DNA of 52,806 bases from Robiginitalea sp. GTDB lineage: Bacteria > Bacteroidota > Bacteroidia > Flavobacteriales > Flavobacteriaceae. A program made the translations under genes and the position numbers. The notes beneath the pieces were generated by a model. The model was not told the origin of the DNA. It did no database searches and saw only the letters and a program-made list of their open reading frames with translations. Positions within the stretch are counted from its first letter, which is position 1; every line of letters begins with the position of its first letter. Positions 3,695-13,216 of the stretch are shown piece after piece. The stretch lies in contig JAHECA010000022.1 in assembly GCA_024642005.1 (NCBI GenBank), positions 1 through 52,806 on the forward strand, given 5' to 3'.

Positions 3695-6600
3695 ATGCAG
3701 TCATCGTATTCACGATATCACATTCCGATTGGCATCCTTCTTCCGCTTTGCCTCCTGATGGGGATTGTGCTTTCGTCTCAGCAGCCCAAAATCGCCTTTG
3801 AGAAGTACGGGGTGCTCGAGGGGCTGCCTGAGGAGTTTGCTTTTTATCAAGTTCAGGACCAGCAGGGATTTATTTGGTCCAGCACCCAAAACGGCCTGGT
3901 CAAGTTTGATGGGTATACCATGCGGGTTCTCAAAGGAAATAAGGACTGGGAAGACATCGGGATACGAAACCTGAATGGAGGATTGTTGTTAGACCGCAAC
4001 GGCCGGTTATGGCTCGCCGCGGTATCCCGGGGAGGCGGGCTTTTCTCGTACGACCCGAAAACTGAAAATTTTACACACTATCCGAATGATCAGAACGACT
4101 CCACCAAAGTACCCTTTGAGAGCTGCAGTCTGCTCTTTGAGGATATCACCGGCGATATCTGGTTTCGGAGCGCTTCGGATGACGGGGAACAGCGTTTTCT
4201 TTGCCGGATCGATCCCGTGACACATCGGGTATCGCGTTATCCGCATGATCCCCCTTTCTTGAGCAATCCGATTGTGCTGAATTTTAAGATGTCCGAATCC
4301 AGGCGCGACAGCAGCATTTGGATCAATACGGAGGAGGATTCGAAATTGATGCGATTCAATCGGGAAAAGGACCATTTTGAGCTCATCTTCGAAAAAGGGG
4401 ATACACTGCCCGGAACGGAACTTTTGGATTCCATCCAGGATATCACCCCGGCTGGAGGCAGCGGGCTTATCCCTATGGGTAACAACCGTCGTTTATACCT
4501 GTGGGACCCGCTTAAGCGCCAGGTTGCCGAATCCTATTCATTTCCCACAAATAAGGACAGTATCTGGTTGGGGACAGCCTTTGAAGATCGGATGGGCCGG
4601 ATCTGGCATACTTCTTACGGACAGGTAAACCGGATAAACCGTGAAACTTCGGAAATTGAGAAATTTACCGTAGGGGCCGGCAAACTCGATTTCATTAAGG
4701 CATTGACCAACGTGCAATCTGTGATCCCTGAATTCCAAAATGAGGATTTTATCATTTTCGCCATTGCATGGCGCGATAATCAAAACAGGGGTCAAAGGAC
4801 CTGGATGCGCTATGATCTGAAAAGCGGGCATTTTGATTTTTTTGACACACAATTCAACGACCCGGAAAATGAATTCGTTGAAAATAATTTTGGGCGCAAA
4901 TTTTCCATGGACAAAACGGGCCTGCTTTGGATCGGAACCCGGCCCAATATGTACAAGCAAGCCCCAAAATCTAGGCAGATTGCACAATTCAAGCATGAAG
5001 ATGGAAATCCGGAGAGCCTGCATAACGACACGATAGCCCGGTTTTTCCAGGACAGCCGGGGACGACTCTGGGTGGGTACAGTCAATGGCATTGCAATCCG
5101 GAATGCTGATAATAGTTTCGAACAGCAATTCAGCGGCCCTGGCAGGAGTAGCAAAAATTCCCTGGGACAGATTTTTAAAATTTATGAAGATTCCAATGGC
5201 CTGATCTGGGTGGCGACCATCGGAAAGGGTCTTTACCGATGGAATGAAACCCGTACGTACTTTGACAGGATCGTGCTGGGCCCTGGTTTGGACCTGATCG
5301 CCGGTGTATGGGAAGGCCCCGAGGGTAATCTTTGGGTTTCGGTCTGGCAGCGGGGAATTTATATCATCGATCCGAATACCGGAAAGGTTGTTCGGAAGTT
5401 CGAACCGGATAAAAAGGATACCCATGGCCTGACGAGTTCAACCATGATCCACCTGTACAGGGATTCAAAAGGCCAGATGTGGCTTGGGGATAGCCGGGAA
5501 ACCGAGCAGGGACTGTACCGGTATTTACCGGAAACCGGGACCTTTAAATCCTACAGCTTTGATGCCGTGGATACGCTTACACTCAGCAGCAGCGAGATCA
5601 CCCTGATCACCGAGGACGACCGCGGGCGCATGTGGGTGGGAACTGACAACGGCCTGAACCTGTATGACCGGGAAGCCGACCACTTTCTCCGGAACAACGA
5701 CCTGTACGCCATTCCAAGCATTTCATCCTATGCACGTGCCGGCGATGGTAAAATGTGGTTCACCACCTACAGTGGGGATGGCCTGGCACTGGTAGGACCG
5801 GGCGTCAATGATGTTGAAATGTTCGGTGAGGAAAAGGGGTTGTTGCACAATGATGTTTCCGCTCAATTTGGAATTGAAATCCCCATCGACGATGCCGGAA
5901 AATTATGGTTGCCTACGGACCGGGGCCTGTCGGTGTTCAATCCATCTACCCGGAGTTTTACCAGTTACTTTGAAGAAGACGGGTTACAGCCGTATAGTAC
6001 ATTCCGAACTATATATCGGTCGCAAAACGGGGACATCTGGTTAGGGGGTAACAACGGAATAAATCACATTGTTCCCGCAACCCTCGCTGAAAAGGACCAC
6101 ACGCCCCCTTCCGTCGTCATAACGCGTATGGGCATCCTGGATAGTGTATACGCTGCAGCGGATGGTGTTCTTTTCGAGATGGCGGTTCCCTATTCGGAGG
6201 CGGTTACCCTAAACCATACCCAGCGGGACCTGAGTTTTGAATTCGTGGCCCTGCACTTCCTGAAACCCGAAGACAACCTGTACTCCTGGAAGCTCGAAAA
6301 CTACGACGACAACTGGACGGAACCTTCCAAAGAACGTAGAGCAAGTTATACCAACCTTTCGCCCGGCGAATACACCTTCAGGGTGAAAGGTTCCAACGCC
6401 GACGGGGTCTGGAACGAGGAAGGGGCCCAGATCCGCATCACCATCCGCCCGCCCTGGTGGCAGACCGGTTGGGCCTATGCCGGGTATTTAGTCATCCTGG
6501 GGTGGATCGGTTTTCTATTCCACCGGTTTCAAAAACAGCGCACCATCCGCCAGGAACGGGAACGCTCACAGGCCAAGGAGCTGGAACAGGCCCGGGAAAT

Positions 6601-7402
6601 CGAAAAGGCCTATGAGCAGCTCAAGGCTACCCAGGAACAGCTGATCCTCTCTGAGAAGATGGCCTCCCTGGGGGAGCTTACCGCCGGCATCGCCCACGAG
6701 ATCCAGAACCCGCTCAACTTCGTGAACAACTTTTCGGAGGTAAGCTCAGAGCTCGTTGACGAAATGAACGAGGAGCTCGACAAGGGAGCCATTCAGGAAG
6801 CGAAGGCCATTGGCGGAGACCTGAAACAGAACCTGGAGAAGATCAACCACCACGGCAGGCGGGCCGACAGCATCGTGAAGGGGATGCTGCAGCACAGCCG
6901 GGGCAGCGAGGGCAAGAAGGAGCCAACCGACATCAATAACCTGGCCGACGAATACCTCCGCCTGGCCTACCACGGCCTGCGCGCCCGCGACAAGTCCTTT
7001 AACGCGTCCATGGAAACCGACCTGGACCCGAAAGCAGGCACGCTGAACGTTGTGCCCCAGGACATCGGCCGGGTGGTCCTGAACCTGGTGACCAATGCCT
7101 TCTATGCGGTTACCGACAGGGCCCGCGAGGCCGGGGCCGGCTACCAGCCCACCGTGACCCTGAAAACGCGCAAAACCGGCAAGGGGGTCGAAATCGAGGT
7201 TACCGACAACGGCATGGGAATTCCCGAAAAGAACCGCTCCAAGATCTTCCAGCCCTTCTTTACCACCAAACCCAGTGGGAAAGGAACGGGGTTGGGGCTG
7301 AGCATGAGCTATGACATCGTGACCAAGGGACACGGGGGGGAATTAACCATGTCCTCAGAAGAAGGAAAAGGCACTACCTTTAGGGTAGTCTTGCCGCAGT
7401 AA
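3695..7402 (+). CDS. Two-component propeller sensor histidine kinase (Reg_prop/Y_Y_Y/HisKA)
   Basis: The protein has 1235 residues. An N-terminal hydrophobic segment (about 9-28) is a signal or anchor. Residues ~30-800 hold many short propeller blades of two-component regulator type ([32 protein letters not shown]). A Y_Y_Y domain follows (~840-920, [20 protein letters not shown]), then one TM helix (~928-947), a coiled coil, HisKA with His1001 ([10 protein letters not shown]) and a HATPase ([16 protein letters not shown]). This is the usual layout of a periplasmic sensor of the HTCS class, but without fused receiver or HTH, so it must act through separate regulators. Its kinase core is nearly the same as that of the upstream kinase. 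It starts 78 bp after that gene and is followed 33 bp later by a receiver gene. In gut Bacteroidetes such propellers sense glycans; the ligand here is unknown. Confidence 0.93.
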
Positions 7403-7435
7403 AAATTGAAATTTGAGCAAGCAAAAACAGTGACC

Positions 7436-7810
7436 ATGAAAATACTGGTTGTAGACGATGAGCGCGATGTACAGATCCTCTTTCAGCAGCGCTTCCGCAA
7501 AGAGATACGCAATGGGGAAATCGAATTCCACTTTGCCTTTTCAGGGGAAGAAGCCCTGGCCTTGATGAATTCCATGCAGCAAAAGGCAGTATTGATCCTT
7601 TCGGACATCAACATGCCTGGCATGACGGGCCTCGAACTGCTGGAGCGGATCCGCACCGAATACGAAACCCCGCCCCCGGTGGTGATGATGATCACCGCCT
7701 ATGGCGACGAGCAGAACCGCACCACGGCCGAGCGGCTGGGGGCCAACGATTTCCTGACCAAACCCCTGGATTTCAATTTATTGAAAGAAAAACTTAACAC
7801 CCTGAACTGA
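7436..7810 (+). CDS. Single-domain response regulator (receiver only)
   Basis: A CheY-like receiver of 124 residues. The acidic pocket is in VVDDERD, the phosphoacceptor is Asp57 (LSDINMPGM), the Thr is in MMITAYGD, and the conserved Lys is in FLTKPLDF. I chose ATG 7436 because it begins directly with the first beta strand (MKILVVDD); an upstream TTG at 7406 would add ten non-conserved residues. There is no output domain, so it may act as a phosphate shuttle or by protein contact. Its stop overlaps the next start (TGATG), so it is probably translated together with the cyclase-linked regulator. The two kinases just upstream are the obvious donors. Confidence 0.92.
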   Translation: MKILVVDDERDVQILFQQRFRKEIRNGEIEFHFAFSGEEALALMNSMQQKAVLILSDINMPGMTGLELLERIRTEYETPPPVVMMITAYGDEQNRTTAERLGANDFLTKPLDFNLLKEKLNTLN

Positions 7811-8850
7811 TGGCCAAGATACTGGTGGTCGACGATGAGACCGACCTGGAAGTGCTCATCAAGCAAAAGTTCCGCAAACAGATCCGCAGCAACGAATACG
7901 AATTCCTGTTTGCCTACAACGGGAGGGAGGCCCTGGAGAAGCTGGGTGCCGAACCCGAAGTAGACCTGGTCTTAAGCGACATCAACATGCCGGAGATGGA
8001 CGGGCTTACCCTGCTTTCGCGCCTGAATGAGCTCAACCCCCTGCTGAAGGCCGTAATCGTCTCGGCCTACGGCGACATGGACAACATCCGCACCGCCATG
8101 AACCGGGGGGCATTCGACTTCGTTACCAAGCCGATCAATTTCGAGGACCTGACCATCACAATGGAAAAAACCCTGACCCACGTGCGGCAGATTCGGGACA
8201 CCCTCAGGGCTGTAAAGGAAAACAACATCCTGCGCATGTATGTAGACGAAAACGTGCTGAACTTCATGAGCGGGCAGGAATTCGAATCGAAGATCACGGC
8301 CAGCGAACACATCGAGGCGACCGTAATGTTCATCGATGTGTGCGGGTTTACCTCCATCAGCGAGAAGGCGCCTCCGGAACTTGTGGTGAACATGCTCAAC
8401 GCCTATTTCGACGTAATGGTAAAAGAGATTATTACCCACGAGGGGTATATTGACAAGTTCATGGGCGACGCCATCATGGCGGTCTTCAGGGGCCAATACC
8501 ACTTAGACCGGGCCATCGACGCAGCCCTTTCCATCCGGCAACAGGTAAACAAGCTGCCCGAGATGGAGGGCGGCTTCGGGTACCGGCCCCAGGTCTCCAT
8601 CGGCATCAGGAGCGGGGAAATGGTGTCGGGGAATATCGGCTCGGCCAGCCTGAAGCGCCTCGACTACACGGTTATCGGCGATACGGTTAATGTGGCGGCC
8701 CGCCTGCAGGGGGCGGCCGGGCCCAACCAGATCCTGATTGCGGAAGCGTGCTACCAGCAGGTGAAGGAATCGTTCAAATGCGAAAGGTTGGGCGAAATTG
8801 CCGTGAAGAACAAGGCAGAGAAGCTCACCGTCTACGAGGTAATGGAATAA
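7810..8850 (+). CDS. Response regulator fused to class III adenylate cyclase
   Basis: 346 residues. A receiver (1-~120, phosphoacceptor Asp57 in LSDINMPEMDG) is joined by a helix to a class III nucleotide cyclase domain (~165-346). Metal-binding Asp176 (FIDVCGF) and Asp220 (FMGDA) are present, as are the transition-state residues Asn294 and Arg298 (TVNVAARL). The purine-selecting positions hold Lys216 (DKFMGD) and Thr287 (YTVIG), the pattern of adenylate rather than guanylate cyclases. The likely product is cAMP, made when a kinase phosphorylates the receiver. All catalytic residues are intact. The gene overlaps the preceding receiver by one base. Substrate choice is inferred from two residues by comparison with mammalian cyclase. 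Confidence 0.93.
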   Translation: MAKILVVDDETDLEVLIKQKFRKQIRSNEYEFLFAYNGREALEKLGAEPEVDLVLSDINMPEMDGLTLLSRLNELNPLLKAVIVSAYGDMDNIRTAMNRGAFDFVTKPINFEDLTITMEKTLTHVRQIRDTLRAVKENNILRMYVDENVLNFMSGQEFESKITASEHIEATVMFIDVCGFTSISEKAPPELVVNMLNAYFDVMVKEIITHEGYIDKFMGDAIMAVFRGQYHLDRAIDAALSIRQQVNKLPEMEGGFGYRPQVSIGIRSGEMVSGNIGSASLKRLDYTVIGDTVNVAARLQGAAGPNQILIAEACYQQVKESFKCERLGEIAVKNKAEKLTVYEVME

Positions 8851-8858
8851 GCCTGCCC

Positions 8859-9659
8859 ATGCTCCCTATATTCAGAAAGCTGCGCCACCGTTTGCTGGCC
8901 GAGAATCGGTTTACCCGCTACCTGCTTTACGCACTGGGGGAAATACTGCTGGTGGTCATCGGCATTCTGCTGGCCCTTCAGGTGAACAACTGGAATGAAG
9001 ACCGCAAGTTCCGCGCCCAGCAAACAGGGTTGCTCACCGACCTTACCCAAGACCTGGAGGCCAACCTAAGCGAACTGCGGTTCGGTCGTACGATGAACAG
9101 CCAATTGCTCGAGGAGTATCGCGGCCTGATGCAGGCAATCAGGGAAGACCAACCGGCTTCCCCGGCCATCGACAGCCTGTGCCTGCACCTGGAAAACTGG
9201 CACAGCGCTTATATTACCAGCACGGCTTATGAAAGCCTGAAGAACAAGGGCCTGGAAATTATCCGGAACGACAGCCTGAAAGCAAAGATCATTTCGATAT
9301 ATGAAAAGACCTTTGTGTTTCTGGTCGAAGACTACGATCGGATGGAATGGGAATTCGCGAGTGCAGTTAAGACGCGTATTTTGAACAATTACATTCGCTA
9401 CGAAGAAGTTGAACCGGGCTCCGACAAGGGTTTGGGACTGGTTGACCCCCTGGATCCGTTGCTTTTCTACGATTTAGTTCGGGTGATGCCGGTCGATTTC
9501 GAGGCCATGAAAGCAGATGTATCATTTGTCAATATGCTCTCCCAGCTGATCCATAACCGTAGAAGGGGCGTGATCCTTTATTCCCAGGTCATTGAAGAAC
9601 TCGAAGGCCTTATCGGGGACATTCAGCGTGAACTGGGTGGCCATGTTAGCGCAGACTAG
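8859..9659 (+). CDS. DUF6090 family membrane protein
   Basis: 266 residues starting at ATG 8859, eight bases after the cyclase stop; an in-frame start inside the cyclase (8748) is unlikely. An amphipathic N-terminus (FRKLRHRLLAENRFTRYLLY) leads to one TM helix (GEILLVVIGILLALQVNNW), the hallmark of DUF6090 proteins common in Flavobacteriia, and then a soluble helical domain. The function is unknown. The position suggests co-transcription with the signalling genes. The stop is shared with the convergent sulfotransferase: CTAG carries both stop codons. Confidence 0.85.
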   Translation: MLPIFRKLRHRLLAENRFTRYLLYALGEILLVVIGILLALQVNNWNEDRKFRAQQTGLLTDLTQDLEANLSELRFGRTMNSQLLEEYRGLMQAIREDQPASPAIDSLCLHLENWHSAYITSTAYESLKNKGLEIIRNDSLKAKIISIYEKTFVFLVEDYDRMEWEFASAVKTRILNNYIRYEEVEPGSDKGLGLVDPLDPLLFYDLVRVMPVDFEAMKADVSFVNMLSQLIHNRRRGVILYSQVIEELEGLIGDIQRELGGHVSAD

Positions 9660-10678
9660 ACCGCCTGAATGGCCCGAAGCTCTTCCAGCAAAGCGTTTCT
9701 GCGCATGCGGCATTGCCGGTCTACCTCGAGATGACTCGCCAACAGGGCTTCCTTTTTAAGCGCTTCATTGGATCTGTCAAATTCCCGGAGCATCGCTGGA
9801 GTAAATTCCTTTTTGCCGGGATTCGTGACACATGGGTATCCGTTTTCCGCAAGCTCCGCTCCGGCCACGGTTTCAAAGATTTCAATCTCTTCGGGGGTAA
9901 GGGCCGTTAAAAACTTTTGGGTGTTGCCGGAAATAATGGGCTGGGTAAGATTGCTCCACATCGTGCCGGCGGCGGCGGTTACCTTAGACTCCTCAGAATT
10001 GAAATATTCCAGCGCCCGCTCATCGATTCCTCCTCCTAAAAATGCATTAAGCGATACAAGGACCGACGCAGGATCGGAAAGTAAGTCTTCGTATTTCAGG
10101 ACCAGAGAACGGTCTGGCCCTACCCGATCGGAGATGCGCCTGGCTTTGTGGTAATTGTTTTTCCATATCGTGGCCAGGTGGTAAGCGTGTTTTTCGCCCA
10201 CAAGGGTCCTTTTGAACGAAGCCGCCACATCGCGCCCGTCACGGATCAGGTGGATGTACAGGGGTTTTAAACCGTTTTCCTCGATTTGCTCAAAGTAATT
10301 GACGTTGGCCATGCTCTTGCAACACCAGAAACGGGCCCCGTCGTTGCGGGCCATCTTTTCATAAACCACCTTAAACACCTCAATCAGGGTAGGTTTCTGG
10401 CAGGCTGCTGCGATTTCTTCCCGGTCAAAGGCCAAATTCCAGGGCACGGGATTGGTTTCGATGAGCCGGCAGACATCGTGCACCAAACGGCGAAAGTTAT
10501 CCGGCTCGTCCAAATTGCCATATTTATTCAAAATGGGCTGGAACACCGACAAGATATGGGGGGGGTGGTGGGCCGAAATCAGGGGGGACTGGTTTAGGAT
10601 CAGCCTTAAAAGATTTGAGCCGGAGCGCTGGGTGCCGATAATCTGGATTGGCGTTAAGGCTGTGTCGGGTGTTTTCAT
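9656..10678 (-). CDS. PAPS-dependent sulfotransferase family protein
   Basis: 340 residues from ATG 10678. The 5'-phosphosulfate loop is GTQRSGSNLLRLIL near the N-terminus; the 3'-phosphate motif is LIRDGRDVAASFKR. Together these place it in the cytosolic sulfotransferase superfamily (Sulfotransfer_3-like), which moves sulfate from PAPS to a hydroxyl or amine. The acceptor is unknown. There is no signal peptide. Its ATG overlaps the TGA of the CHR transporter (ATGA), pointing to translational coupling and shared transcription with 10675-13216. The 3' end overlaps the convergent DUF6090 gene by three bases. A longer frame reaches 10780 but would run into the transporter. Confidence 0.88.
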   Translation of the reverse strand: MKTPDTALTPIQIIGTQRSGSNLLRLILNQSPLISAHHPPHILSVFQPILNKYGNLDEPDNFRRLVHDVCRLIETNPVPWNLAFDREEIAAACQKPTLIEVFKVVYEKMARNDGARFWCCKSMANVNYFEQIEENGLKPLYIHLIRDGRDVAASFKRTLVGEKHAYHLATIWKNNYHKARRISDRVGPDRSLVLKYEDLLSDPASVLVSLNAFLGGGIDERALEYFNSEESKVTAAAGTMWSNLTQPIISGNTQKFLTALTPEEIEIFETVAGAELAENGYPCVTNPGKKEFTPAMLREFDRSNEALKKEALLASHLEVDRQCRMRRNALLEELRAIQAV

Positions 10679-11862
10679 AATAAGCTTATCGTAAAGGCGA
10701 CGCCTATGAGCAGGGCGGGGTGAATTTTGGTAAAAACGGAGGCGGCCAGGGCCCCTGCAAAAATAGTCCAGGGCAGCCAATCCATCCCAAATGTTTTGAT
10801 GCCGATGGTGTAGGCACCGCTGAAAATCAACCCGATTACCACGGCCCGAATGCCCATCATAACGGCCCCTATGGCCTTCAGGTGTTTGATTTTCTCATGC
10901 ACATGGGTCAGCAATAGCATCAGCATGGCCGAAGGAAGAAAAATAGAAATAGTGGCAATTACAGCCCCGCTAATGCCTGCCATTTTATAGCCGATAAAGG
11001 TAACACTGCTCAAAATCGGGCCGGGTGTCACCTGGCTAATGCCTATAGCGGCGTTAAATTCTTGCAGGGTTACCCAGCCCAAATCAGACACCAGGGCCTG
11101 TTGCATGATCGGAATAATCACATACCCACCGCCAAACAGGGTTAGGCTCATACCCGAAAACACGCTCGAAAGGGCCAGGGACGCCTCCAATTGGTTCGTA
11201 GCATAGGCCAGGCCAACCAATGCCAGGCCTCCCACTGCGAGAATACCCGCCAGGGTAATCATCTCCTTGCGGGTTATTAGCCGGGAAGGCATTGTATCGA
11301 CCGGGGTGGCAGCCTGTTTATCCCTGTAAAAAAAGTAGCCTGCCACCCCCCCTGTTAAGATCGTGCCGATGAGCAGGAACACATGGGTGGCCGTTACGGA
11401 AACCAAAAAGGCCAGGATGGCGAGTACCCACTGGCTGGGCAGTTTTATCTGCTTTCGGGCCATGGTATACCCCACGCTGGCAATGATGGCCGCAATTACG
11501 GGTATCACATAAGCAATGGAAGCGCTTAATTGCATCCCGGCTGAATAATACAACACCGCAAAGCCCAGAACCAACAGGGAGGTTGGCAGGAGTATCCCAA
11601 AAAAGCTGACAAAGGCCCCCCGTATGCCCGATACGACAAATCCGTAATAAACCACCGAATTAACTGCCAATGGCCCGGGTAGCATGGCGGCGAGGGAGGC
11701 CCCTTCCAGGATCTGATTATCGGAAAGCACCTTTAATTTATCGGACAGCTGCTTTTTGACCATGGCAACCAGGGCCATATGCCCACCAAACGAAATGCTG
11801 CCGATCAGGAAAAAGTTCCAGAAAAGGCCCAGGAGGGAAATTTTGGCCGGATTGCTTTTCAA
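10675..11862 (-). CDS. chrA: CHR family transporter (chromate/sulfate type)
   Basis: About 395 residues, very hydrophobic, with two homologous CHR halves. The first begins FFLIGSISFGGHMALV and contains AAMLPGPLAVN; the second contains LFGGGYVIIPIMQ and ISQVTPGPILSSVTF. The paired FGG...PGP motifs are typical of full-length ChrA proteins, which export chromate and may also handle sulfate. The start is uncertain: no ATG precedes the first helix, so I take TTG 11862, four bases after the upstream stop. Tight packing between two sulfotransfer genes favours an oxyanion such as sulfate as the natural substrate, but that is inference. Confidence 0.87.
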   Translation of the reverse strand: MKSNPAKISLLGLFWNFFLIGSISFGGHMALVAMVKKQLSDKLKVLSDNQILEGASLAAMLPGPLAVNSVVYYGFVVSGIRGAFVSFFGILLPTSLLVLGFAVLYYSAGMQLSASIAYVIPVIAAIIASVGYTMARKQIKLPSQWVLAILAFLVSVTATHVFLLIGTILTGGVAGYFFYRDKQAATPVDTMPSRLITRKEMITLAGILAVGGLALVGLAYATNQLEASLALSSVFSGMSLTLFGGGYVIIPIMQQALVSDLGWVTLQEFNAAIGISQVTPGPILSSVTFIGYKMAGISGAVIATISIFLPSAMLMLLLTHVHEKIKHLKAIGAVMMGIRAVVIGLIFSGAYTIGIKTFGMDWLPWTIFAGALAASVFTKIHPALLIGVAFTISLL

Positions 11863-11866
11863 ACCG

Positions 11867-13216
11867 TTACTTGCTTGAGAAAAAAGGTGGAACGTAAGTG
11901 GCCCGGTAAGGTACCGGGATGCCAGCACCCGCCTGATACAGGATTTTTCCAGAAGGGTCCAGCACCGCCAGGCCCTCTTTGGGCGACGAACATACCAGCA
12001 GGTTGCCGTTGGGCAGTACCTGGGCATTGCCCATCTTTACGGTGAACAGCTCCTGCGGCAGGGCAATGTCCATTGCGCGTTCGGCCTTCCCATCTGCAAG
12101 CCTGTAAGAAACGATGCGTGTCTGACGCTTCCTGCGGCCGTTGTCGAAGAGCATGTAATGGTCATTCGGGTCTTTGAGGATGGCGTGCTGGTAATCAAAG
12201 GGCGGCCCGTCCATCTCGAAATCGCCTCCCTCCCCCAGCACCCATATGCGCTGGCCGGTTTTTACATCCACCTTCCAAACCTGGTTCCAGTCGCGGTACG
12301 AGATCAAAAGATTCTCGTCGGAATCAAAGGCCAGGGCATTGGCGTGGCCCCAGTCCCCATCCATCTCCTTGACGGGAATCCCATCGGGCTTTACCACGTC
12401 GAACGTACTCCATTTCCAAAGGATTTCCCCCTGTTTGTTGAATCGGATAACCGCACTGGAAACGGCCAGCTCCCGGGTGCCGCCCATCTGGTATGGGATA
12501 CTGTCGTATACCAGGGCATATACATCCCCGTTATGGTCGATCACCTCGTGGTGCGCCATCAGGTGCTGTTTGGCCAGGTCAATATCGAAAGAAACCCGGC
12601 CATCGAGGGTATACCCAATGATGCGGTCCCCGGCGCTGTTATTGTCTTTGGGGTCGCCCACCAACACAGCCACCTCATTCGACGCGGTCAGGTGGGATAG
12701 CTTGGGGATACGCGGGGTGTGCTGGTACCAAACAACTGCCGATTCGTTGTTGAGCATGTAGACCAGGCCGTCTTGCTGGCCTTTTTTCTGGGTCAGGATA
12801 TAGCCGTCAAAGGCATTGCCGGTATTTATTTTTTCACTCACCTGAACCAGGGTGCTGTCTGGGGCGGGTGTGCGGAAATCCAGGGCGGCGGAGATCGCGT
12901 GGTCCTGATGCAAAATTTCCACCGCGTAGTCCCTGCCTGGTTTCAGGCAGGCCAGCAAGACATTCTGGGTTTTCCCGGGTGGCAATCCCTTCAGGAAAAA
13001 GGCCTCCCCAGATTTAAGATCACTGATGCGTACCGAGACTTCGATGGAATCCTTTAAGCTGAATTGCAAAGCCCGGACCCCGGGGTTTGCAGTTTCGCCC
13101 AGTATCGGTGCTGCTGTAAAATAGTTTTCAGACCGACAGCCGTTGGAGGTAATTAAAACAAGTGCAGCGGCAAGAAAAAATAACGATTTCACTCCGAAAA
13201 TTGACCTTTCTCCCAT
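11867..13216 (-). CDS. Arylsulfotransferase (ASST)-like lipoprotein
   Basis: 449 residues. An N-terminal hydrophobic stretch ends in a lipobox-like LITSNGC (Cys27), so it is probably a lipoprotein on the envelope. The rest is a propeller-like repeat protein with the look of arylsulfate sulfotransferases: HH (222/223, LMAHHEVIDHNGD), GHANAL (His291), YQHAIL (His344) and the phrase VLPNGNLLV. ASST enzymes move sulfate from one aryl ester to another through a sulfo-histidine without PAPS. The spacing of histidines fits, but the catalytic one cannot be fixed without alignment. It is first gene of a three-gene run with a CHR transporter and a PAPS-type sulfotransferase. A paralogue is at 51121-52791. 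Confidence 0.8.
   Translation of the reverse strand: MGERSIFGVKSLFFLAAALVLITSNGCRSENYFTAAPILGETANPGVRALQFSLKDSIEVSVRISDLKSGEAFFLKGLPPGKTQNVLLACLKPGRDYAVEILHQDHAISAALDFRTPAPDSTLVQVSEKINTGNAFDGYILTQKKGQQDGLVYMLNNESAVVWYQHTPRIPKLSHLTASNEVAVLVGDPKDNNSAGDRIIGYTLDGRVSFDIDLAKQHLMAHHEVIDHNGDVYALVYDSIPYQMGGTRELAVSSAVIRFNKQGEILWKWSTFDVVKPDGIPVKEMDGDWGHANALAFDSDENLLISYRDWNQVWKVDVKTGQRIWVLGEGGDFEMDGPPFDYQHAILKDPNDHYMLFDNGRRKRQTRIVSYRLADGKAERAMDIALPQELFTVKMGNAQVLPNGNLLVCSSPKEGLAVLDPSGKILYQAGAGIPVPYRATYVPPFFSSK

Follow-up and report, generated by a model that had tools for sequence, protein, structure and literature searches.

A sulfotransferase, a CHR-family transporter and an arylsulfate sulfotransferase of Robiginitalea belong to a conserved, sulfate-themed gene system of Bacteroidota: a possible two-compartment sulfation relay

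Results

Three tightly packed sulfate-related genes in Robiginitalea

The stretch of DNA analyzed here, hereafter the window, comprises the 52,806 nucleotides (positions 1 to 52,806, forward strand) of contig JAHECA010000022.1 in the Robiginitalea sp. assembly GCA_024642005.1. Three tightly packed genes span positions 13216–9656 of its minus strand and encode, in order of reading, (i) a predicted exported arylsulfate sulfotransferase of 449 residues (ASST; 11867..13216), (ii) a CHR-family membrane transporter of 395 residues in which two half-transporters are fused (CHR; 10675..11862) and (iii) a 340-residue sulfotransferase (ST; 9656..10678) of the type that uses 3'-phosphoadenosine 5'-phosphosulfate (PAPS). 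The stop codon of the ASST gene (TAA) is separated by a 4-bp spacer from the TTG start codon of the CHR gene, whose own stop codon lies in an ATGA overlap with the ST gene. An earlier note on this DNA had described the same arrangement, which the open reading frame (ORF) calls, the reading of the junctions and the Pfam assignments confirm; from the gene spacing, we infer that the trio is co-transcribed.

The window ASST matches PF05935 (66.9 bits for a cut-off of 24.2, E 2.2e-18) and PF14269 (58.9 bits for a cut-off of 27, E 7e-16). The fold of its AlphaFold2 (AF2) model (predicted local distance difference test score, pLDDT, 89.5) resembles most closely that of Cpz4 (entries 9kf6 and 9kf4), followed by that of the Escherichia coli ASST, and the same two Cpz4 entries also rank first among solved structures by sequence. 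In an alignment of 35 ASSTs (the window protein and 34 from loci found with ST as seed, see below), numbered after the E. coli enzyme, the residues equivalent to His252, His356, Asn358 and His436 are invariant (35/35). Their counterparts in the window protein, all encoded on the minus strand, are the second residue of the likewise invariant pair His222-His223 (12548..12553), the ends of the segment His291 to Asn293 (12338..12346), and His344 (12185..12187), which matches the sulfated nucleophile His436. Arg308 (12293..12295, minus strand) occupies the position of Arg374, where only 17 of the 35 proteins have Arg and the others Tyr, Ala or Phe. By its families and catalytic residues, the window protein is thus predicted to be an arylsulfate sulfotransferase. 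Its N-terminal hydrophobic helix (residues 7–25 in the AF2 model) ends with a lipobox-like site (SNGC) at Cys27 (13136..13138, minus strand), which was detected by a pattern search. The strict lipobox pattern is satisfied by 14 of the 35 ASSTs, including this one, and most of the others, as judged by eye, either match the lipobox less strictly or begin with a hydrophobic stretch. These features support a membrane-anchored, exported ASST.

The CHR protein matches PF02417 (E 1.9e-66) over two stretches, one for each of its fused halves. It scores below the cut-off of 250 bits set for each of the two chromate equivalog models, NF053759 and NF053760 (99.2 and 96.3 bits, respectively). Its AF2 model (pLDDT 88) is all-helical and has no Foldseek match at E 0.001 or better, the best being UraA (E 4e-3, template modeling score 0.38), followed by SLC26-type proteins; no solved relative was found by sequence either.

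The ST matches PF13469 (86.3 bits, E 4.8e-24) and is 65–67% identical to its closest relatives. Its residues 11–25, IQIIGTQRSGSNLLR (10604..10648, minus strand), presumably form the loop that accommodates the 5'-phosphosulfate of PAPS; this segment, with its TQRSGSN loop, is invariant in the seven aligned STs (7/7). Given the sulfotransferase fold and this loop, the protein is predicted to be PAPS-dependent.

The trio is part of a widespread gene system

A single scan of one-per-species genomes with an ST alignment yielded 48 loci, so that all counts below are conditional on the ST seed; many of these loci are cut by contig ends. They come from families that include Flavobacteriaceae, Sphingobacteriaceae, Cyclobacteriaceae, Reichenbachiellaceae, Spirosomataceae, Prolixibacteraceae and Saprospiraceae. 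Clustering of their ORFs gave ST in 47 loci (the 48th, L120, is cut by a contig end), CHR in 43, ASST in 34, SusD in 33, SusC in 30, and the adenosine 5'-phosphosulfate (APS) kinase CysC and the 3'-phosphoadenosine 5'-phosphate (PAP) phosphatase CysQ in 24 each. Pfam searches with cluster representatives identified SusD, a SusC-type TonB plug protein, PF00459 and PF01583. The next commonest family, an M1-peptidase-like protein, is present in 13 of the 48 loci. Locus L116 (Niabella ginsengisoli) is included in the count despite its fragmented ST: from position 9992 onward, ST and CysQ are each represented by short, broken ORFs, owing to decay or to sequencing errors.

In 39 of the 47 loci with an ST ORF, the gene immediately upstream of ST, in the same orientation, is CHR; the two overlap by 4 bp in 18 of these 39. 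ST and ASST ORFs are both found in 33 of 47 loci, 26 of which display SusC, SusD and ASST consecutively. Gene order varies: SusCD–ASST–CHR–ST with or without CysQ–CysC, CHR–ST–CysQ–CysC followed by SusCD–ASST, ASST–CHR–ST–SusCD, and SusCD–ASST–ST with CHR farther on. That the members stay together despite this reshuffling suggests that they function as a unit, in which an outer part (SusC–SusD–ASST) can be told from an inner one (CHR–ST–CysQ–CysC). Altogether, these data support the view that the trio belongs to a widespread, conserved, sulfate-themed gene system. The common sulfate theme perceived in the earlier note is borne out on this larger scale, and one finding that it named as refuting its proposal, a trio confined to this strain, did not materialize. 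In locus L107 (9983-12696), which has no CHR, the gene directly after ST encodes another kind of ASST-family protein (PF05935, E 1e-15).

The accessory enzymes differ from locus to locus (GH20, GH123-type, GH16, GH2, GH31, trehalase/GH63-like, sulfatases), and ECF sigma and FecR-like genes sometimes surround the system in the relatives. A single glycan target, which we considered, was rejected on account of these differences; with such diverse glycosidases, different loci may serve different acceptors, or the cell may sulfate material of its own.

ST-linked CHRs form a separate group

A careful tree was built from 44 linked CHRs and 12 unlinked ones, and a second, quick tree with 23 unlinked ones; the program warned of long branches. 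In both, a single branch with full support separates the ST-linked from the unlinked CHRs, and the window CHR is among the linked ones. The 23 unlinked control proteins, all from one bacterial family, are drawn from the 49 genomes with unlinked CHRs described below. Within about 1.5 kb on each side, none of the 23 control genes has an ST, ASST, SusD, CysC or CysQ neighbor, and one has a SusC-like ORF. A chance neighborhood of the trio genes was considered and is ruled out by the linkage across Bacteroidota together with these controls. The CHR group being tied to the sulfotransferase, with CysC and CysQ each in 24 of 48 loci, the window transporter is probably not there for chromate, as the earlier note had proposed.

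Distribution in the family and on Serratia plasmids

We also surveyed 299 genomes of the family for matches to the three proteins. ST matches were found in 16 genomes besides that of the window strain, six of them close (45–65% identity; G006, G212, G143, G014, G238 and G121). The six top-ranking CHR matches (E 2e-67 or better) come from these same six genomes, in each case with CHR adjoining ST; the CHR matches of 49 further genomes have E 6e-35 or worse. ASST adjoins CHR in four of the six and lies about 9 kb away in G006 and G212. ASST matches occur in nine other genomes, namely these six plus G225, G094 and G023, which have no ST match; there, ASST follows SusC/SusD directly (G225 and G094) or three ORFs later (G023). 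In G225 (L070:3633-18101) and G094 (L071:3483-15898), the SusC–SusD–ASST operons have no ST or CHR nearby and carry large proteins that, as judged by eye, resemble the GH123_N (PF19543), DUF5107 and, in L070 only, M1-like proteins of locus L084. Within the genus, ST is found in the window strain only (1 of 10 genomes), suggesting that the trio represents there either a gain or a rare survival.

Outside Bacteroidota, two plasmid records, both of Serratia from river water and probably not independent, carry an ST at 41.7% identity. On plasmid pJSRIV004_1 of Serratia sp. JSRIV004 (L181:8988-15029), the gene order is ATP sulfurylase/APS kinase fusion–TauE–ST–CysQ–CHR; this cassette is flanked by transposases and the plasmid is typed as conjugative. 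By its gene content, the cassette appears to be the inner part of the system. Its CHR is closest to the ST-linked CHRs by identity and by path (45% identity to that of L104).

The window strain and its surroundings

On its ST side, the trio is followed by a convergent DUF6090 gene with a 4-base overlap; a DUF4293 gene lies 419 bp upstream of the trio, with a short ORF without Pfam match in between. No SusC, SusD, CysC or CysQ was detected in the window by tblastn with eight such proteins from relatives (E 1e-3), and the window copy lacks the adjoining SusC/SusD pair that defines a polysaccharide utilization locus. Farther away, on the plus strand (3695-8850), there is a row of three genes characterized by eye: one for a 1235-residue protein resembling sensor kinases, one resembling response regulators, and one of 346 residues that looks like a fusion of receiver and nucleotide cyclase.

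PAPS supply was examined in 36 ST-bearing genomes, i.e. 32 from a choice of 33 among the 48 loci plus the window genome (G000), G014, G121 and G143. An APS kinase match at E 1e-40 or better is present in 33 of them; it is marginal in the genome of L077 (E 1.7e-4) and absent from that of L104 and from the window genome. A PF01507 match was found in 37 of 39 genomes searched, the two without being those of L104 and L113. The window genome is 99.97% complete in 78 contigs, and each of eight other near-complete congeners has a CysD-sized PF01507 protein (two were inspected). In the sister genome G191, cysQ, cysC and cysD, identified by eye, lie directly beyond bshA, and contig C63 of the window genome ends inside bshA (L180; compare L176). 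Since the contig ends where the sister keeps cysQ–cysC–cysD, the absence of CysC and CysD is unsafe, and an assembly gap is the likelier cause. An ATP-free salvage of PAPS in this strain, which looked strong from the gene absences, was demoted on account of this contig end. The succession of CysH and sulfite reductase seen in the window genome is also found in G335 and G191 and is thus no scar peculiar to the window strain. Sulfate assimilation looks patchy in the genus: G332 and G338 have a CysD-type protein, and no CysH-type one was seen in them.

Discussion

A two-compartment sulfation relay

The sulfuryl donors of ASSTs are aryl sulfates, not PAPS (PMC13426309), so that an exported ASST needs a sulfated carrier. 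We tentatively read the trio as a sulfation relay across two compartments, in its compact form, that would supply this carrier, a reading that we favor while placing it somewhat short of probable. In the cytosol, ST would transfer the sulfuryl group of PAPS to a small acceptor, as expected from its family; this carrier is most likely a phenol or an enol. In the relatives, CysC would make the PAPS and CysQ would clear the by-product PAP. CHR would then export the anionic sulfated carrier across the inner membrane. Finally, the membrane-anchored ASST would take the sulfuryl group on His344 and pass it to an acceptor outside the cytosol, a step for which the chemistry is known in the family and export is supported here; the desulfated carrier would diffuse back. 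Where SusC, SusD and ASST adjoin, the acceptor could plausibly be a sugar hydroxyl of the glycan or glycoside handled by the SusC–SusD pair. We infer the carrier, the acceptor and the direction of CHR transport. The more specific proposal that CHR exports an organic sulfate ester, which would be the natural donor supply of the exported ASST, and that the SusC/SusD loci write sulfate onto surface or periplasmic glycans, is more doubtful.

The relay draws support from the linkage seen in the 48 loci, from the separation of ST-linked from unlinked CHRs, from the Serratia cassette and from the Cpz8/Cpz4 precedent described below. The outward, PAPS-consuming direction is favored by the CysC/CysQ linkage, the conserved ASST residues, the likeness to Cpz4 and the presence of a strong APS kinase in nearly all ST-bearing genomes. 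CysC and CysQ as neighbors fit an ST working forward. CysQ is reported to hydrolyze PAP, a sulfotransferase inhibitor, and yields were raised by CysQ together with CysDNC (PMC6731281).

Several observations weigh against the relay. CHR is missing from 5 of the 48 loci and ASST from 14 (some of these loci being cut by contig ends), and three genomes of the family have the SusC/SusD–ASST association without any ST match. Neither Serratia plasmid has an ASST match (E 1e-10), and the Serratia CHR, on a long branch, falls with the unlinked CHRs in the quick tree (starred branch, 96). The position of Arg374 is not Arg in 18 of 35 ASSTs, the window protein having kept it. The window genome has no detected APS kinase or Sat, and a genome-wide search found no CysD-type protein, its sole PF01507 protein being CysH-like (207 residues) and followed by the sulfite reductase; an assembly gap is likely here, as noted above. 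No carrier-making gene was recognized in the annotated loci, the genomes not having been searched for type III polyketide synthases or the like. Finally, the window CHR passes TIGR00937, the NCBIfam chromate-efflux subfamily model (188.3 bits for a cut-off of 171.7).

Alternative explanations

This last score is what speaks for ordinary chromate resistance beside unrelated sulfur genes, an explanation that we consider highly improbable: the protein misses both equivalog cut-offs, and the linkage conserved across several families, the separate CHR group and the Serratia cassette all argue otherwise. A supply role, in which CHR would import inorganic sulfate for PAPS synthesis while the ST product would leave by another way and ASST would separately use environmental aryl sulfates, is unlikely but deserves more attention. 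CHR is indeed tied most tightly to ST (39 of 47 loci), and sulfate uptake is described as limiting in a PAPS cell factory (PMC6731281); however, a TauE-type transporter accompanies CHR in the Serratia cassette, and the repeated linkage of ASST would be left unexplained.

The same genes and the same direction as in the relay would also serve detoxification, if ST sulfated toxic phenols encountered during the degradation of plant or algal matter, CHR expelled the phenyl sulfates and ASST shuffled sulfate among phenols outside. Carriers of the system include Formosa algae, Pedobacter and Mucilaginibacter, whose habitats would suit such a role, and ASSTs are reported to sulfate many phenols (PMC13426309). 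We nevertheless hold it to be unlikely, somewhat more so than the supply role, as the recurring SusC/SusD and glycosidase neighbors point to glycans and the annotated loci showed no gene for phenol handling next to the trio. Less likely still is an inward salvage in which ASST and CHR would gather organic sulfate and ST would run in reverse (aryl sulfate + PAP -> PAPS) to feed CysH. Some PAPS sulfotransferases are described as regenerating PAPS when given PAP together with an aryl sulfate (PMC13426309), and the window genome, with CysH and sulfite reductase but no detected CysD, Sat or CysC, stands apart from its eight CysD-bearing congeners. On the other hand, CysQ (24 of 48 loci) would destroy the PAP that is needed, CysC is equally frequent, 33 of 36 ST-bearing genomes have a strong APS kinase match, and the genes missing in the window strain would sit just past a contig end; altogether, salvage appears improbable. 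The earlier note had envisaged a system for making and exporting, or else salvaging, sulfated molecules. A sulfate-themed system stands, and is found to be conserved; the CysC/CysQ context argues against salvage; its interpretation, supported in part, did not include the SusC/SusD context, the PAPS-supply genes or the Cpz8/Cpz4 precedent.

Relation to known systems

This precedent comes from caprazamycin biosynthesis in Streptomyces, where Cpz8, which depends on PAPS, sulfates a triketide pyrone, from which Cpz4 then moves the sulfate on to an aminoribose (PMC6731281). Both gene sets combine an ST of the PAPS-dependent type with a PAPS-independent ASST, for which Cpz4 is the nearest solved structure; ST would correspond to Cpz8 by its role. 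Unlike that of caprazamycin, the present system would operate within a Gram-negative envelope and has CHR between the two enzymes, CysC/CysQ and SusC/SusD being added in the relatives. The periplasmic ASST of E. coli CFT073 is similarly exported and has matching active-site residues, but its operon is described as ASST with DsbL/DsbI (PMC13426309), with neither ST nor CHR. CHR shares its Pfam family and NCBIfam subfamily model with the ChrA chromate efflux proteins, from which it differs by its scores against the equivalog models and by its sulfation neighbors. The loci of the relatives resemble the polysaccharide utilization loci of Bacteroidota by their SusC–SusD pairs, glycosidases or sulfatases and occasional ECF sigma/FecR-like genes; unlike the usual ones, they contain a sulfate-adding gene set, and the window copy has no adjoining SusC/SusD. 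Finally, the cysC–cysD–cysN–cysQ clusters that serve polysaccharide or metabolite sulfation also join a sulfotransferase to genes that supply PAPS and remove PAP (as seen in L027), but those seen here lack both the exported ASST and the linked CHR.

The component families and the two-step sulfation in Streptomyces are already known. Among the listed papers of the open-licence full-text literature, as judged by titles and abstract openings, we recognized no earlier description of the membrane-spanning gene set, of the CHR group that belongs to it or of its location in loci for sugar uptake; the system thus appears to be undescribed.

According to a 2026 review, more than 40 years have passed without a natural substrate being identified for PAPS-independent ASSTs, whose role in bacteria is poorly understood, caprazamycin's Cpz4 being the case with an established role (PMC13426309). 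The gene set described here offers a concrete, testable candidate source for the ASST donor, namely a cytosolic PAPS enzyme and a transporter, and points to a likely non-chromate role for one group of CHR proteins. It also adds many enzyme sets to those available for producing sulfated compounds. In addition, it would place a sulfate-adding function inside sugar-uptake loci; if this is true, these bacteria write sulfate on glycans and do not only remove it.

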